This document shows positions 32,136 to 39,307 of a stretch of DNA of 47,224 nucleotides, one piece after another. Position numbers and translations under genes: made by a program. Within the stretch, counting starts at the first letter, position 1; each line of letters begins with the position of its first letter. The notes below the pieces were generated by a model. The model saw only the letters and a program-made list of their open reading frames with translations, made no database searches and was not told the origin of the DNA. The DNA is from Candidatus Eisenbacteria bacterium (lineage in GTDB: Bacteria; Eisenbacteria; RBG-16-71-46; SZUA-252): positions 1 to 47,224 of the forward strand of contig VBOW01000028.1 in assembly GCA_005893275.1 (NCBI GenBank), read 5' to 3'.

Positions 32136-33656
32136 ATGACCCCAAGGCCGACGGAACGATTGAACATCGCCGATCATTTCCTCGATGCGCGCGTGCGCGA
32201 GGGCCGTGGCGCGCGTCCCGCGCTCCTCACGGATTCCGGAACCCATTCCTACTCCGACGTGCAGAGCCTTGCGAACCGCTTCCGCGCCGTGCTGGCCGAG
32301 GAGGGGGTCGAGCCCGAGCACCGCGTCCTGGTCGCCCTCCCCGACGGACCGGCGTTCGTCGGCGCTTTGTTCGGGACGCTCAAGCTCGGCGCGGTGGCGG
32401 TGATGGTGAACCCTGGGCTTCCGGCAGAGGAAATCGGCTATTTGCTCGAATACACCCGCGCGCGGGCGGTGGTGACGCACCGTTCCGTGGCGGTGACGTT
32501 TCAGACCGCCGCGCGGGATTCCCGCTTCGCGAAAACGGTGCTGGTCGTCGGTGAGGAGAGCTTCGACCGCCGTCTGGCCGCCTCCTCCCCCGTGCTGGGC
32601 ACGTTTCCTTCCCACCGCGACGACCCCGCGATCTGGCTCTTCTCGGGCGGCACGACGGGTCGCCCGAAGGCGGTGATTCAGACCCACCGCTCCTTCACGA
32701 ACACGACCGAGTGTTACGGGAAGCACGTGATCGGCTACACCGCGGACGACGTCACCCTCTCCGTTCCCAAGCTCTACTTCGGCTACGCGACCGGTTCGAA
32801 CCTCTTCTTCCCGTTTGCGGCGGGCGGCGCGGCGGCGCTTTTCCCCGAGCCGGCGAGCGCCGAGGTCCTCTTCGAAAAGATCCGGCGCTTCCGACCCACG
32901 GTGCTGATCAACGTCCCCACGATGATCCATAAGATGGTCTCGCACCCGGACGCCCGGGCACAGGATCTATCTTCGATCCGCGTGTGCACCTCCGCGGGCG
33001 AGGCACTCCCGGCCGAGCTCTACCGAAAGTGGAGGGAGACGTTCAGCGTCGAGCTCCTGGACGGGCTCGGCACCGCGGAGATGTGGCATATCTTCATTTC
33101 GAACCGGCCGGGTGCCTCGAGACCGGGTTCGCTCGGCACCGTGGTGCCCGGGTTCGAGGTAAGAGTCTGCGATGACGAAGGGCGGGAGCTGCCGCGCGGC
33201 GAGACCGGCTGGCTCTGGGTACGCGGCGACTCCCGGGCGATCGGATACTGGCAGCATATGGAGAAGACGGCGCAGGGGTTTCGCGGTGAGTGGTACGTCT
33301 CGGGAGACCTCATCGCGATGGACCCCGATGGGTACGTGACCTACTGCGGCCGCGGTGACGAAATGCTCAAGGTCTCGGGAAAGTGGCTCGCGCCCCAAGA
33401 GGTGGAGGGATGCCTGCTCCAGCATCCGGCCGTCGCGGAAGCCGCGGTCGTCGGCGTGCAGGACGCGAGCGGTCTCGTCAAACCCCGCGCGTACGTTGTA
33501 TCGAACGATCGGCGCGACGGTCTCGACGAGGAGCTGAAGGCGTTCGTTCGCGCGCGCCTCGAGCCCTACAAGCATCCTCGCGATGTGATCTTCGTGGACG
33601 CTTTGCCGCGGACGCACCTCGGCAAGGTGGATCGAGGCAGGCTACGGAAGGGGTGA
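32136..33656 (+). CDS. Benzoate-CoA-ligase-family enzyme, probable 2-aminobenzoate-CoA ligase
   Basis: The product is 506 residues from ATG 32136 (ATG 32109 is also in frame; neither has a strong ribosome-binding site). It is an acyl-adenylate-forming enzyme: WLFSGGTTGRPKAVIQTH (P-loop), YFGYATGSNLFFPFAAGG and VPTMIHKMV in the pattern of benzoate-CoA ligases, ELLDGLGTAEMWHIF, DEMLKVSGKWLAPQEVE, and THLGKVDRGRLRK with the C-terminal catalytic Lys. It would activate anthranilate from kynureninase to 2-aminobenzoyl-CoA, the substrate of the ACMR encoded on the other strand. Benzoate or hydroxybenzoate are alternatives. The divergent, near-adjacent arrangement supports a shared role. Confidence 0.9.
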   Translation: MTPRPTERLNIADHFLDARVREGRGARPALLTDSGTHSYSDVQSLANRFRAVLAEEGVEPEHRVLVALPDGPAFVGALFGTLKLGAVAVMVNPGLPAEEIGYLLEYTRARAVVTHRSVAVTFQTAARDSRFAKTVLVVGEESFDRRLAASSPVLGTFPSHRDDPAIWLFSGGTTGRPKAVIQTHRSFTNTTECYGKHVIGYTADDVTLSVPKLYFGYATGSNLFFPFAAGGAAALFPEPASAEVLFEKIRRFRPTVLINVPTMIHKMVSHPDARAQDLSSIRVCTSAGEALPAELYRKWRETFSVELLDGLGTAEMWHIFISNRPGASRPGSLGTVVPGFEVRVCDDEGRELPRGETGWLWVRGDSRAIGYWQHMEKTAQGFRGEWYVSGDLIAMDPDGYVTYCGRGDEMLKVSGKWLAPQEVEGCLLQHPAVAEAAVVGVQDASGLVKPRAYVVSNDRRDGLDEELKAFVRARLEPYKHPRDVIFVDALPRTHLGKVDRGRLRKG

Positions 33657-33661
33657 GCTGG

Positions 33662-33997
33662 ATGGTGACCCTGAAGCCTTACTTTCAGAGGTGGGAGCCG
33701 CTTCGTGTCTGGTACAACCTGATCCTCTTCGTCGTGCTCGTCGTTTCTCACGTTCCCTATATGGGCGTGGCCTTCCTGGAGCCCATGGTGTTCCTGATCT
33801 GGCTCGCCGGGGCCGTCCTCGCCAATATCTGCTTCCTGGCCGGGCCGCTCGCGGAGGCGTACCTCTCTTGGCTCGGGATCCGGTCGCGCTACATCCTGCC
33901 CGTCCTCTTCATCGGGGGCGTACTGATCTCGATCCCCTGCGTCGTCTTCTTCACCCCGCTTCTTCCGTTCGCGCGGATGGGCCTAGGTGGGCCGTAG
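33662..33997 (+). CDS. Small membrane protein of unknown function
   Basis: The product is 111 residues from ATG 33662, 5 nt after the ligase stop, with AAGGGG upstream inside the ligase end. After a short aromatic and basic N-terminus (LKPYFQRWEPLRVWYN) come three hydrophobic helices (LILFVVLVVSHVPYMGVAF, MVFLIWLAGAVLANICFLAG and YILPVLFIGGVLISIPCVVFF). No family recognised. It overlaps the following TMTC-like gene by 11 nt, so it could work with that membrane protein rather than with anthranilate breakdown. Confidence 0.75.
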   Translation: MVTLKPYFQRWEPLRVWYNLILFVVLVVSHVPYMGVAFLEPMVFLIWLAGAVLANICFLAGPLAEAYLSWLGIRSRYILPVLFIGGVLISIPCVVFFTPLLPFARMGLGGP

Positions 33998-35660
33998 TCG
34001 GAAGCCCGAGATCACGGGCACGGGCGCCGCAGGGTGGCCATCGCGCAAGATCACGCCCGTCCCGGCCTCGCGGTGGCTCCTCGCGTGCGCCGCGACCGCC
34101 GCCGCCGCGCTCCTCCTCTACCTCCCCACGCTGAAATTCGGGTTCCTCGGCTGGGACGACTTCGTGTACGTGGACCAGAATCCCTGGATCCGCTCCTGGT
34201 CCTACGAAAATCTCCGCCACATTTTCACCAAGCCCTATTTCGTGAGCTACATGCCCCTCCAGCACGTGTCCTACATGGCGGATTACGGCTTCTGGGGACT
34301 GAAGCCATTCGGGTACCACCTCCAGCAGATCATCCTCCACGCTCTGAACACGGCGCTCGCCTTCGTCGTAGGACGGCGCCTCTTCGGGCGGTTTTGGCTC
34401 GCCGCCATCGCCGGGATTCTCTTCGCGGCGCACCCATCCCACGTCGAGTCGGTCGCCTGGGTCTCCGCCCGAAAAGACGTCCTCTCCACGGCGTTTCTCC
34501 TTCCTTCGGTCTACTTCTATCTGCCCCGGGGAGAGCGGTCGCTTCGGAGGGGGCCGTACACCGCGTCGCTCGTATTCTTCACGCTCGCTGTTCTCTCGAA
34601 GGTGAACGTGGTCGTGATGCCCCTCTTTCTCATCCTCGTCGATATGGCTTCACCCACGCTCGCGCGCCGCGACGGCAAGCGCTGGCTCCAGGCTCTCGGC
34701 AGCAAGACTCCCTACGGCGTGATCGGCCTCGGGGTTGCGATCGTCAACTGGGTCGTGGAGGTGAAGACGAAGGCAGCCTACGCCCGAGACCCCGTCCGAT
34801 ACCTGGTGCTGAAGGGGCACGCGGCGTGGAACTATTTCGGGATCCTCACCGGCATTCCGCGGCAGAACCCGATCTACGACACACCGCACATCGCGCTCGA
34901 CGTTCTCTCGATGGCGGCCCATCTGGCCGGGCTTCTCCTCCTGCCGTTCCTCGTGTGGCTCGGCTATCGGCGCCGCGACCGCGTCCTCGCTCTCGGGGCG
35001 GGTTGGACCCTGGTGATGCTCCTGCCGGCGATCCTCTTTCCTGTCCCGACCTACATCGCGGACCGCTATCTCTACGTGCCGAGCCTGGGCTTCTGTTGGC
35101 TCTTGGCCGGCGCCATCCTGGCCGTGAGCGCGAACCTCAGAGCGCCGGCGGCCCGCGCCGCGACCGCCGCGATTCTCACCGCGATCCCGGCCGCGTTCTT
35201 CGCGTATCGCACGACCCAGTACAGCCGGGTCTGGGCGAGCTCCGAGACGCTCTGGTCCTACACGCTTCAGGCGAGCGAGGATTTCCGCGCCTACAACAGT
35301 CTCGCGCGGGTCCGGATGGACCAAGGCCGCTGGGACGAGGCGGAGCGGCTTTACAAGCTCGGCTCCCGGCAGCCCAACGTCACGTCCTACGACGGACTGA
35401 CCGTCGTCTACTACAAGACCGGCCGATTCGCGGAGGCGCTCCAAGCGAACGACAAAGCGTTCCAGATGCACGCGCTCAAAGGGGATGATCCGGTGGAGCT
35501 CGCGGATCTGACGTACAAGCGAGGGTCGATCTACCTCGCGCAGTCTCAAACAGCGAAGGCGATCGAGCTGCTCGAGACCGCGCTCCGCGCCAATCCACGA
35601 CACCCGGACGCGCGGAGGATGCTCGATCTCGCCAAGCGGGCGAAAACGCAGAAGCCCTAG
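33987..35660 (+). CDS. TMTC-like membrane protein: PMT-type fold with short C-terminal TPR region
   Basis: The product is 557 residues from GTG 33987, overlapping the previous gene. The membrane part (about 30-400, roughly 10-11 helices) has GFLGWDDFVYVDQNPWI, the paired AAHPSHVESVAWVSARKDVL and TYIADRYLYVPSLGFCW. These are the same landmarks as the protein at 9235-11064. The TPR-like tail covers residues 420-550 (YNSLARVRMDQGRWDEAERLYKLGS and AIELLETALRANPRHPDARRML). It is presumably a membrane glycosyltransferase of the O-mannosyltransferase superfamily; acceptor and sugar donor are unknown. The two copies share the WDD and HPxHVESVAWVSxRKD motifs but have different tails, so they are ancient paralogues rather than a recent duplication. 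Confidence 0.87.
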   Translation: MGRSRKPEITGTGAAGWPSRKITPVPASRWLLACAATAAAALLLYLPTLKFGFLGWDDFVYVDQNPWIRSWSYENLRHIFTKPYFVSYMPLQHVSYMADYGFWGLKPFGYHLQQIILHALNTALAFVVGRRLFGRFWLAAIAGILFAAHPSHVESVAWVSARKDVLSTAFLLPSVYFYLPRGERSLRRGPYTASLVFFTLAVLSKVNVVVMPLFLILVDMASPTLARRDGKRWLQALGSKTPYGVIGLGVAIVNWVVEVKTKAAYARDPVRYLVLKGHAAWNYFGILTGIPRQNPIYDTPHIALDVLSMAAHLAGLLLLPFLVWLGYRRRDRVLALGAGWTLVMLLPAILFPVPTYIADRYLYVPSLGFCWLLAGAILAVSANLRAPAARAATAAILTAIPAAFFAYRTTQYSRVWASSETLWSYTLQASEDFRAYNSLARVRMDQGRWDEAERLYKLGSRQPNVTSYDGLTVVYYKTGRFAEALQANDKAFQMHALKGDDPVELADLTYKRGSIYLAQSQTAKAIELLETALRANPRHPDARRMLDLAKRAKTQKP

Positions 35661-35663
35661 AGG

Positions 35664-35897
35664 CTAGCCCCGGACAGCCTCTCGCGCGCGTTTCATGACC
35701 CGCCACGGATTCGGATACCAGAAGCGGCTCGAGCTCACGACCTCGCGGCCGTCGACGAGGACCGTCAGCTCCCCCAGGCCTCCCCGCTCGACCGCGACTT
35801 CCACGCCGGGTTGTTTTCGAAGGTCCGCGGCCACACGGGCCGCGATGGCCGTCTTGACCAGTCAGACGGGGCAGTGCCGGATGAGGACCCGCTTCAC
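35664..35897 (-). CDS. Candidate selenoprotein, SelW/SelT/SelH (Rdx) family, with in-frame UGA at CxxU
   Basis: The product is 77 residues if UGA at 35864-35862 is read as selenocysteine. The start is GTG 35897, in a GTGA overlap with the upstream secreted-protein gene, and GAGGGGAG lies 7 nt before it. The protein opens MKRVLIRHCPVU, so Sec12 is the second member of C9-x-x-U12. After the UGA the frame stays open for 65 codons and matches the Rdx pattern: an Ala-rich helix (VKTAIAARVAADLRKQPG), then VEVAVERGGLGELTVLVDG, REVVSSSRFWYPNP and a basic C-terminal helix. Codons end mostly in G or C on both sides of the UGA. Rdx proteins are thioredoxin-fold redox proteins. A point mutation or sequencing error from TGC/TGT is the main alternative. 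Confidence 0.8.
35822..35861 (-). promoter_or_regulatory. Putative bacterial SECIS hairpin downstream of UGA
   Basis: Starting 24 nt after the UGA, a five-base loop CGUGU (35837-35833) is closed by a perfect seven-pair stem, CGCGGCC (35844-35838) with GGCCGCG (35832-35826). A lower helix GGUC/GACC (35859-35856 and 35825-35822) can form below an 11-nt bulge on the 5' side. The loop distance and a G within its first two bases fit the published bacterial SECIS consensus (loop 16-37 nt from UGA), the element bound by SelB. GC-rich DNA forms such hairpins by chance fairly often, so this supports but does not prove recoding. Confidence 0.65.
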
Positions 35898-36841
35898 GGG
35901 CCCGCTCCCCTCTTGGCGGGACCCTCCGCGGGGCGCAGCGCGCCGCCCCCGACCTCCTCGACGGCGGCGGTGAACCGCATCCATTCGATCCCGGCCCTTC
36001 CGCCGGGCGCGTGCGCCGCGAGATTCATCTCCTCGACGGTGAGCACGCCGCGGCCCTCACGGGCGACGCGCTCGACCTCCTCCTCGGTCACGCCGTGATC
36101 GGCGGAGGGGCCCTGAATCGTCTTTCCGACCTCGCGCGAGAATATGAATTCACGCCTCTGCCGTGGAGCGTTCACGTCCCCCCGGTTGGGGCCCGGAGGT
36201 GTGAGCCGGGCGAGGTTTTCGCCGGGCCTCATCGTATCGCGAATCGCGATCTCCCACCCGAGCGGCAGCGGATTGAGCTCGAGACGGAGCCCGTCCCAGA
36301 GATCGTGGACGAAACGCTCGCCGCGCGTCACACGCGCCCCGAACAAGGCGGTCCGGCCCCGGACGAACGCGTGATCGGGGCAGTTCTCGCACGAGTAGCC
36401 GGCCAGGTGAAGCGTGTCGGGTCCCTCGAAATCCGCGAGCATCCTGCGTTCGTATGACTCGTACCAGCCTTCGAATTGGAGCGCCTGGATGACATTCCCT
36501 CCCGGCTCGGACTGCTCGGAGAAGAGATAGCCGCCGCGGCAGAGCACCGTGTCGCGCGTGGCCCGGCGCTCGTGGAACTCGTACGTCATATCCGGCCGGA
36601 GGACGAGGGTCCGCGCGGCCCCCTTGGTTTCGGGATCCGAGTCCGCCACCAGCCCCTCGCTCTTGATCCAGAGCCACGTACCGAAATAGCGGCCAAGATC
36701 AGGTACAAGGGAACGGTCCGCTCCCAGGTCGCCGGGCCGCGACGGGGCGGCCTTATGTCCCTGCGCCTCGGGCGCGGCGCAGGAACGCCCAGGCACCGTC
36801 AGGAGCAGGGCCATCCCCCCCGCCCGGAGGAGGCGCGTCAC
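35894..36841 (-). CDS. Secreted protein of unknown function
   Basis: The product is 315 residues if it starts at GTG 36841, which overlaps the upstream lipoprotein stop in GTGA form; ATG 36856 is the alternative. The N-terminus is a Sec signal (TRLLRAGGMALLLTVPG, then RSCAAP). The mature protein has a beta-rich first half (LGRYFGTWLWIKSEGL, TLVLRPDMTYEF, VLCRGGYLFSE) somewhat like lipocalin-type barrels, then SCENCPDHAF with a C-x2-C pair, and a charged C-terminal region rich in Glu and Arg. No family recognised. It is directly coupled to the candidate selenoprotein by a 4-nt overlap, so exported thiol chemistry is conceivable but unproven. Confidence 0.75.
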   Translation of the reverse strand: MTRLLRAGGMALLLTVPGRSCAAPEAQGHKAAPSRPGDLGADRSLVPDLGRYFGTWLWIKSEGLVADSDPETKGAARTLVLRPDMTYEFHERRATRDTVLCRGGYLFSEQSEPGGNVIQALQFEGWYESYERRMLADFEGPDTLHLAGYSCENCPDHAFVRGRTALFGARVTRGERFVHDLWDGLRLELNPLPLGWEIAIRDTMRPGENLARLTPPGPNRGDVNAPRQRREFIFSREVGKTIQGPSADHGVTEEEVERVAREGRGVLTVEEMNLAAHAPGGRAGIEWMRFTAAVEEVGGGALRPAEGPAKRGAGP

Positions 36842-37425
36842 ATCGAGAAATCGCATGCGATGGGGTTCGTGTAGACAGTGGCGGTGAACCGGCCGCGCAC
36901 GCGGATCCGGCCGCCCCCGGCAAACTCGCTCCCCAAGAACGCGTCGATGGTCGCGTCGATGCGCGTGGGAGGACCGCACGAGAGCGAATGGATCGTGACG
37001 GTGCCGGACGAGCCCTGCTCGACGCTGCTCGCCTCGTTCCCCGTACCCACATCGTAGACGAAGACCATGACAGGGCCCTGCCCCGCGGCGGGAGTCGGGA
37101 GCGAGAAGACGGAGTCTTGGGTCATCTCGTCGGGAATCACGAACATCTTCCATGTCGAGCGCGCCTTCGTGTTGTCGTAGTAGAGAATCTTCACGGTCTC
37201 TCGATTGATGTACCCCGGCTCCCAGAGGGAGCAGCAGACCGCGTGGGTCCTCCCCATGAGAATGGTCGTGGAGTCCTCGCGGGTGAAGGTGAAGCCGTCG
37301 GAGATGGAGTTGCTCCCGGGCGGCCGGATCGGCGTCGTCGGCTTGTTGGAGCCGCACCCAAGGCACGCGAGACTCGCCGCCAGAACGGCGAGCGCGAGCC
37401 TTCTCACGCCCGTTGCCTCGAGCAT
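36838..37425 (-). CDS. Lipoprotein of unknown function
   Basis: The product is 195 residues from ATG 37425, with GGAGGG six nt upstream; a longer frame upstream is not signal-like. The signal runs VRRLALAVLAASLACLGC, with the lipobox CLGC placing the lipidated Cys at about 24. The mature part includes SISDGFTFTREDSTTILMGRTH, an unusual VCCSLWEPGY with adjacent cysteines, YYDNTKARSTWKMFVIPDE and a beta-rich C-terminus. I do not recognise it. It begins a three-gene minus-strand unit with the secreted protein and the candidate selenoprotein, each joined by GTGA overlaps. Confidence 0.78.
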   Translation of the reverse strand: MLEATGVRRLALAVLAASLACLGCGSNKPTTPIRPPGSNSISDGFTFTREDSTTILMGRTHAVCCSLWEPGYINRETVKILYYDNTKARSTWKMFVIPDEMTQDSVFSLPTPAAGQGPVMVFVYDVGTGNEASSVEQGSSGTVTIHSLSCGPPTRIDATIDAFLGSEFAGGGRIRVRGRFTATVYTNPIACDFSM

Positions 37426-37577
37426 CCGGTCCCTCCGAAGTCCGCCGCTTGCGCCTTCCGACGGGTTGTATTTTACTTCCTGCCCTACGCGCCTGTCCCT
37501 GATCCCTTTCACAGGGACCAAGCTCGTCCCATCGCCTGCTCCAGAGGGGGCAGCAGCTCAGAAGGAGGAGTCCCATC

Positions 37578-38102
37578 ATGAAAGCGCGCGGTATGGCCTT
37601 GGCGGTCCTGACCTTGGGCTTTGCTGCGGCGGCCTTCGCGGCCGAGCCGAAGCACGAGACGCCTGCCGGTCCCCCGAACCCCGGTTTTGAGCGGCTCAAG
37701 GCGCTCATCGGCTCGTGGGAGGGCACGGGGGAGGATGGAAAACCGGTCGCGATTTCCTACAGCCTGATTTCCGGCGGGTCCGCGTTGGAGGAAAAGCTCG
37801 GCCCGGCCGACGAGCCGAGCATGGTCACGATGTATCATCCGGACGGCGCCACCGTCCTCATGACTCACTATTGCGCCGCCCAGAACCAGCCGCGGCTGCG
37901 AGCCAAAGCCGCCTCGCCGGACGCCAGGACCCTCGAATTCACCTTCGTCGACTGCTCCAATCTATCCTCCAAGGACGCGGGCCACATGCACCATCTCGTG
38001 CTGAGCTTCGAGGACCCGGATCATTTTTCGCAGGAGTGGACCTGGAAGGAAAACGCCAAGGAGCGGAAGACTCTGTTCCATTTCTCGAGAAGGAAGGCAT
38101 AG
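37578..38102 (+). CDS. Secreted DUF1579-like protein
   Basis: The product is 174 residues, from an ATG with AAGGAGGAG upstream. Residues 1-22 are a signal peptide ending AFAAE. The mature domain begins PGFERLKALIGSWEGTGEDGKPVAISYSLISGGSALEEKLG. It continues with MVTMYHPDGATVLMTHYCAAQNQPRLRAK and FTFVDCSNL, and ends FSQEWTWKENAKERKTLFHFSR. This LIGSW-type opening and barrel pattern is common in small lipocalin-like or DUF1579-type proteins, whose function is unknown. It is divergent from the lipoprotein at 37425, with a 152-nt gap that must hold two promoters. Confidence 0.82.
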   Translation: MKARGMALAVLTLGFAAAAFAAEPKHETPAGPPNPGFERLKALIGSWEGTGEDGKPVAISYSLISGGSALEEKLGPADEPSMVTMYHPDGATVLMTHYCAAQNQPRLRAKAASPDARTLEFTFVDCSNLSSKDAGHMHHLVLSFEDPDHFSQEWTWKENAKERKTLFHFSRRKA

Positions 38103-38112
38103 GGGCAGACAG

Positions 38113-38137
38113 GCGTCCGCGGCCCGGCCGCGGACGC
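38113..38137. terminator. Bidirectional terminator-like hairpin
   Basis: A perfect 11-bp inverted repeat, GCGTCCGCGGC (38113-38123) and GCCGCGGACGC (38127-38137), has a three-base loop. It lies exactly between the convergent stops of the DUF1579-like gene and the hydroxyacid oxidase. There is no T-run on either side, so termination may be weak or factor-assisted. Confidence 0.6.
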
Positions 38138-39307
38138 TCAGCCGCCGGCGATGAGCGAGCGGTCGATCGCCTTCACGTCGGGACAGCCGCAAAGCGCCAT
38201 CGCGAGCATCAGCTCCTGGCGGAGCAGCTCGAGCACGCGCGCGACCCCTTGCTCCCCGGCCGCCGCGAGGCCCCAGAGGCAGGGGCGGCCGACCAAGACG
38301 GCACGCGCGCCGAGCGCCAAGGCCTTCAGCACGTCCGTCCCGCGGCGGACCCCTCCGTCCATGAAAACCTCGAGCCGTCCCGCGGCGGCGTCGACCACGC
38401 GTGGCAGGGCCTTGAGCGAGGCTTCCGTCCCGTCGAGCTGTCTTCCCCCGTGGTTCGACACGATGATGGCGTCGATACCCTGTTCGGCCGCCCGCGCGGC
38501 GTCTTCGGCCGCGATGATTCCCTTCAGGATGATCGGAAGCTTGGTTTCGCTCCGGAGCCATTCGACGGAGCTCCACGTGAGCGAGGCGTCGAGCTGCCGG
38601 GCGGCATAGGCGGCGAAGCTCCCCCCCATCGTCGCCGCATCGAGACCGACCGCCTCGAAATTACTGATACAGAGCCCCGCGGGAAGAGCGAACTTGTTCC
38701 TGATGTCGCGCTCGCGACATCCCAGAAGCGGCGTATCGACCGTGAGGCAGAGCGCGCGGTATCCGGCCGCTCCCGCCCGGTGGATCAGGCTTCGCGCCAG
38801 GGAGCGGTCCTTGTAGACGTACAGCTGATACCAGAGCGGCCCCGTCGCGGCGCCCGCAATCTCCTCGAGCGAATAGGTGGATATCGTGCTCGCCACCATG
38901 AGCGTCCGCGCGGCACCCGCCGCGCGCGCCGTCGCCAGCTCTCCGTCCGGATGGGCGAGGCGATGGAACGCGGTGGGAGCGATGAGGACCGGCATCGAGA
39001 CCGGCGTGCCGAGCACCGACGTGGCCGTGTCGATGCGGCTCACGTCCACGAGGACGCGCGGCCTCAGGAAGACATCGGCGAACGCGCCGCGATTGGCCGC
39101 GAGGGTGCGCTCGTCCTCGGCGCCGCCGGCGTAGTAATCGTAGAAGGCCCGCTCCATGCGATCGCGGGCGAGCGCCTCGAAATCGAGCACGTTCGCGCAG
39201 CCGTCGATCGGCGAGGCCCGGGACGAGCGCCTCCCTTCCCGCGCGGCCAAGACGACCCCTCGTCGCGCGGCCTTCTTCGGCGCGCGTGCCCTCTTCCTCG
39301 GACTCAC
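38138..39307 (-). CDS. FMN-dependent alpha-hydroxyacid oxidase/dehydrogenase
   Basis: The product is up to 389 residues from GTG 39307. The FMN (glycolate/lactate oxidase) family features are present: AFYDYYAGGAEDERTLAANR, PVLIAPTAFHRLAHPDGE, WYQLYVYKDRSLA, ALCLTVDTPLLGCRERDIRN, LKGIIAAEDA, and the active-site SNHGGRQLDGTEASL with catalytic His followed by Arg. DGGVRRGTDVLKALALGA binds the FMN phosphate. It oxidises a 2-hydroxyacid to a 2-oxoacid; which one is not clear. The first 30 residues are very basic and probably not part of the fold, so the real start may be later, although no good internal start is visible. It follows mnmA by 16 nt. Confidence 0.92.
   Translation of the reverse strand: MSPRKRARAPKKAARRGVVLAAREGRRSSRASPIDGCANVLDFEALARDRMERAFYDYYAGGAEDERTLAANRGAFADVFLRPRVLVDVSRIDTATSVLGTPVSMPVLIAPTAFHRLAHPDGELATARAAGAARTLMVASTISTYSLEEIAGAATGPLWYQLYVYKDRSLARSLIHRAGAAGYRALCLTVDTPLLGCRERDIRNKFALPAGLCISNFEAVGLDAATMGGSFAAYAARQLDASLTWSSVEWLRSETKLPIILKGIIAAEDAARAAEQGIDAIIVSNHGGRQLDGTEASLKALPRVVDAAAGRLEVFMDGGVRRGTDVLKALALGARAVLVGRPCLWGLAAAGEQGVARVLELLRQELMLAMALCGCPDVKAIDRSLIAGG

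Follow-up and report, generated by a model that had tools for sequence, protein, structure and literature searches.

A predicted, divergent SelW-like selenoprotein gene in an apparent intergenic gap of a Candidatus Eisenbacteria genome

Introduction

Can a seemingly empty gap between two convergent genes hold a complete selenoprotein gene, read through an in-frame UGA as selenocysteine (Sec)? The question is raised by a short minus-strand frame in the window, by which we mean the whole 47,224-nucleotide stretch of Candidatus Eisenbacteria DNA that was analysed. The initial annotation had described a hidden gene of 77 residues split by one UGA and had interpreted it as an Rdx-family selenoprotein. 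The frame is as it described, running from a GTG at 35897 to a TAG at 35664 with TGA as codon 12, and the interpretation is supported by the comparisons below. Bacteria are already known to have a family of SelW-like selenoproteins with a CxxU motif (PMC1088965, PMC1794560, PMC2398784, PMC9312934), to which the window gene adds a divergent new member; our literature search found no paper naming both Eisenbacteria and selenoprotein. Judged from sequence comparisons, the locus is very probably a genuine Rdx (SelW/SelT/SelH) selenoprotein gene in which UGA would be read as Sec.

The frame and its local context

The SelW-like gene occupies 35664..35897 on the minus strand, as all further features of the window gene do, and its assignment draws on homologues, an AlphaFold model and Rdx matches in the PDB. 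Its frame opens with 11 sense codons, of which the first is the GTG start (35897-35895), and continues through the TGA (35864-35862) and 65 further sense codons to the TAG stop (35666-35664). With Sec at codon 12 it encodes MKRVLIRHCPVULVKTAIAARVAADLRKQPGVEVAVERGGLGELTVLVDGREVVSSSRFWYPNPWRVMKRAREAVRG. The TGA thereby supplies Sec-12 of a CPVU motif, and five subgroup homologues have TGA at the same codon; the TGC codon of Cys-9 lies at 35871..35873, and this cysteine is invariant in 32 aligned proteins. The initial annotation numbered both residues correctly (C9, U12) but called the UGA the second residue of the CPVx motif; it is the fourth residue of CxxU, that is, the second redox residue.

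The proposed ribosome-binding site and overlap with the neighbouring gene are both present on direct reading: a Shine-Dalgarno-like AGGGGAG (35905..35911) stands 7 nt before the GTG, and the start codon overlaps the upstream gene's stop codon in a GTGA (35894..35897). Translation of the window gene is probably coupled to that of this neighbour. On the other side a convergent TPR gene ends at 35660, and the selenoprotein gene fills the gap completely. Standard annotation would cut the product after 11 residues and leave an apparent intergenic gap. When all TGAs of the window were scanned for a redox motif and coding-like third positions, codon 12 was the sole CxxU-type TGA with coding-like third positions on both sides; the other UGA candidates were not convincing and were set aside.

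Two minus-strand frames upstream of the selenoprotein gene (36838-37521 and 35894-36856) have an exported or lipoprotein-type look and are without Pfam families. They could form an operon.

Homologues and phylogeny

We searched 47 genomes of the window's phylum with the protein and then with a profile, and extended the profile searches to the phylum of a Rokubacteria genome, G047. Five close relatives were found (in G007, G006, G045, G037 and G033), which are 37–45% identical to the window protein; that of G007 aligns with 45% identity. Each has exactly one internal stop, a TGA at the same codon as in the window gene, and their frames show no stops elsewhere. After the UGA, third codon positions are less conserved (0.31–0.39) than first and second positions (0.47–0.62) in all five pairs with the window gene, and likewise in most other pairs, as expected if selection acts on an encoded protein.

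These data bear on one alternative, in which the second cysteine of a cysteine-type SelW gene was misread in sequencing or was lost to a recent nonsense mutation, as in a pseudogene. TGA is indeed one base from TGC or TGT, and the base is known here from assemblies. However, a sequencing error is implausible because the TGA is conserved in six assemblies, five of them from genomes whose proteins are at most 45% identical to the window protein and whose frames are otherwise open. Moreover, no form with Cys at the Sec site occurs among the profile matches of the window's phylum, the hairpin described below is kept, and the window genome decodes Sec. We regard error or decay as very improbable, and continue with a selenoprotein gene.

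All six subgroup genomes also carry a canonical SelW gene with a TGA, and the window gene is therefore a paralogue of canonical SelW. In the window genome (G000) this second gene has one in-frame TGA and begins MKIEIVYCSEUNYLPRA (locus L001, E 1.6e-16). A maximum-likelihood tree separates the six subgroup members as a clade (support 97/93) from 22 canonical SelW genes and four Rokubacteria-type genes. Beyond the phyla searched, a conserved-pattern scan of IMG/VR returned no relatives, and none were found in plasmids.

The canonical SelW genes at L001:1486-1707 (minus; contig C35 of G000) and L023:1498-1716 (plus; contig C35 of G006) lie directly downstream of a gene for what resembles, by eye, a DoxX-type membrane protein. 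The two may possibly form a conserved pair.

A conserved gene neighbourhood for the subgroup itself was considered and rejected, since the genomes inspected do not share the same neighbours. These include GNAT acetyltransferase and methyltransferase genes in one setting and, in others, GCV_T and Rce1-like genes, an O-methyltransferase, PEPCK and amidohydrolase genes, and OsmC. Because of these differences, genomic context points to no partner. Near the G033 homologue there is an OsmC-like gene (PF02566; L090:4559-5155).

Protein family and fold

Searched alone, the window protein has no Pfam match at E≤1, and so stays below the cut-off of Rdx (PF10262); among NCBIfam models it matches NF041051 weakly (E 0.0064), far below that model's cut-off. 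The Pfam search proposed earlier thus failed for the single protein but reached Rdx at E≤1 for four of the six subgroup members (lowest E 7e-07). The lack of a match for the window protein reflects the divergence of its subgroup. A profile of the subgroup aligns with canonical SelW at 98.7% in hhalign (E 4.1e-16). In a PDB search with this profile, all matches with E up to 0.05 are Rdx proteins, led by 2ljk (MIEN1; 3e-06) and followed by 2oka, 2ojl, 3dex, 2obk and 2fa8. In the alignments inspected the Sec column falls over the second Cys of CxxC, so that the cysteine homologues sought at this site exist among solved Rdx proteins.

An AlphaFold model built from 32 alignment rows (pLDDT 95, pTM 0.83) has the secondary-structure order β-α-β-β-β-α of the thioredoxin-like SelW fold, with CxxU (C9, U12) between the first strand (E2-8) and the first helix (H13-27). 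The top 22 Foldseek matches in the PDB are all Rdx/SelW-related entries, including 3dex with a TM-score of 0.75; ordinary thioredoxins follow, and among them stands mouse SelW (2npb; TM-score 0.69, rank 35). The predicted fold is thus that of Rdx/SelW. The subgroup profile and the predicted structure together place the window protein in this family, in agreement with the SelW-type identity first proposed.

The model also bears on the idea that the locus holds two small ORFs instead of one gene, the first giving an 11-residue peptide that stops at the UGA and the second a 56-residue protein starting from a GTG at 35834. Both frames are open under the standard code, but a protein begun at the downstream start would be missing the CxxU motif together with strand 1 and some of helix 1, and homology is continuous across the UGA in the alignments of all relatives. 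It is hard to credit this reading at all, and we find it the least probable of the alternatives. A single protein spanning the UGA is the reading we retain.

A candidate SECIS hairpin

Published rules for bacterial SECIS elements (bSECIS) call for a loop of 3–9 nt, a stem of 4–16 bp, a G among the first two loop nucleotides, a distance of 16–37 nt from the UGA and a minimum free energy of at most -7.5 (PMC13188914). A SECIS-like hairpin at 35826..35844 (minus strand) satisfies them all. It has a 7-bp stem (CGCGGCC/GGCCGCG) and a 5-nt loop (CGUGU) placed 24 nt after the UGA, and alone it folds with -13.3 kcal/mol. A perfect Watson-Crick stem of at least 7 bp under the same rules follows just 1.0% of the window's 984 TGAs.

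The hairpin occurs in 6/6 subgroup members, with stems of 6 or 7 bp in the five relatives and 97.6% of cells paired. Two stem pairs are changed on both sides among the six sequences. In the window copy a C-G to G-C flip affects two Ala codons, in each case at the wobble position, and is synonymous. This level of paired change was matched by 10 of 500 shuffles; with six sequences, such covariation is supportive of a SECIS element but not proof of one.

Folding depends on the segment considered. In a 50-nt fold from the UGA of the window copy another pairing is favoured (hairpin probability 0.04), whereas in a 42-nt fold the hairpin dominates. When the bases adjoining the UGA are left out, as the ribosome would cover them, the hairpin probability is 0.97–1.0. 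In the homologue at L038 the hairpin is also in competition with other folds. An Rfam search of 33000-38500 gave chance-level matches only.

Selenocysteine machinery in the genome and phylum

The window genome (2.88 Mb in 95 contigs, 99.65% complete) contains the whole set of decoding genes that the initial annotation had asked for. The tRNA-Sec lies on contig C14 (124458-124551; 69.1 bits; anticodon UCA by ARAGORN), about 110 bases from selD (C14:124664-125590; 373 bits), while selA (C20:33465; 576 bits) and selB (C36:24192; 359 bits) are on other contigs; all four score above curated cut-offs. Across the phylum, selA is matched at E≤0.001 in 43/47 genomes (over the curated cut-off in 40/47) and in all 26 high-quality genomes, defined as ≥90% complete and ≤5% contaminated. 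Selenocysteine decoding therefore seems to be a basic trait of the window's phylum.

The UGA might instead be read as another amino acid, by plain suppression or under a reassigned code. The open frame agrees with this, and nothing further does. Against it, the upstream neighbour itself ends in TGA (35896-35894), the genes for Sec synthesis and insertion are present, and the site is the redox position of CxxU, occupied by Cys in CxxC homologues. Readthrough with a residue other than Sec is highly improbable, and insertion of Sec is the reading we carry forward.

Proposed function and significance

By analogy with the E. coli pathway (PMC1794560), the hairpin would recruit SelB with GTP and Sec-tRNA-Sec, so that Sec is inserted at codon 12. 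To judge from the CxxU motif and the fold, C9 and Sec12 may then form a reversible selenenylsulfide in a small thioredoxin-fold protein and pass electrons to and from a thiol partner, a mechanism proposed for SelW. What bacterial SelW-like proteins do has been called unclear, with a redox role and glutathione interaction suggested (PMC1088965).

We further conjecture, at roughly even odds, that the six genes form a second, functionally distinct SelW-type subfamily that always occurs beside canonical SelW, has its own partner, carries a SECIS constrained by its AARVAA codons, and has some members missed by Pfam Rdx and normal gene callers. The locus matters as a selenoprotein gene hidden in a seeming intergenic gap and missed by Pfam, and it adds a divergent SelW-type paralogue to a phylum with widespread selA. 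Canonical and divergent paralogues in one cell also offer a route to the function of bacterial SelW-like proteins.

Comparison with known systems

The window protein shares with bacterial SelW-like proteins (SELENOW-like, PF10262, CxxU) a CxxU motif between strand 1 and helix 1 and a GxxG(E)...VDG core. Both are of ∼75 residues, with Sec at the same place and a hairpin just after the UGA. It is, however, just 21–39% identical to the other SelW-type rows aligned, and it has neither the xYxPRA nor the FSKK/GRFPE motif of canonical SelW; it does have AARVAA and VLVDG. Genes of the window type are second copies beside canonical SelW and form their separate clade.

The best profile and fold matches are MIEN1/C17orf37 and the bacterial CxxC Rdx proteins listed above (2oka to 2fa8), which have Cys where the window protein has Sec and are 19–28% identical to it in the fold alignment.

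The Rokubacteria-type SelW-like genes (L063, L067, L071 and L075), from the phylum of G047, follow the pattern CxxU(L/M)DLRREAVRLR...WGGLGELTV.VDGR. Like the window protein they have a CxxU encoded with UGA, a one-residue insertion following this motif and a GGLGELTV.VDGR core; yet they form their own group on the tree (92/95), and their tail (VFS...GR.PEPGE) is nearer to that of canonical SelW.
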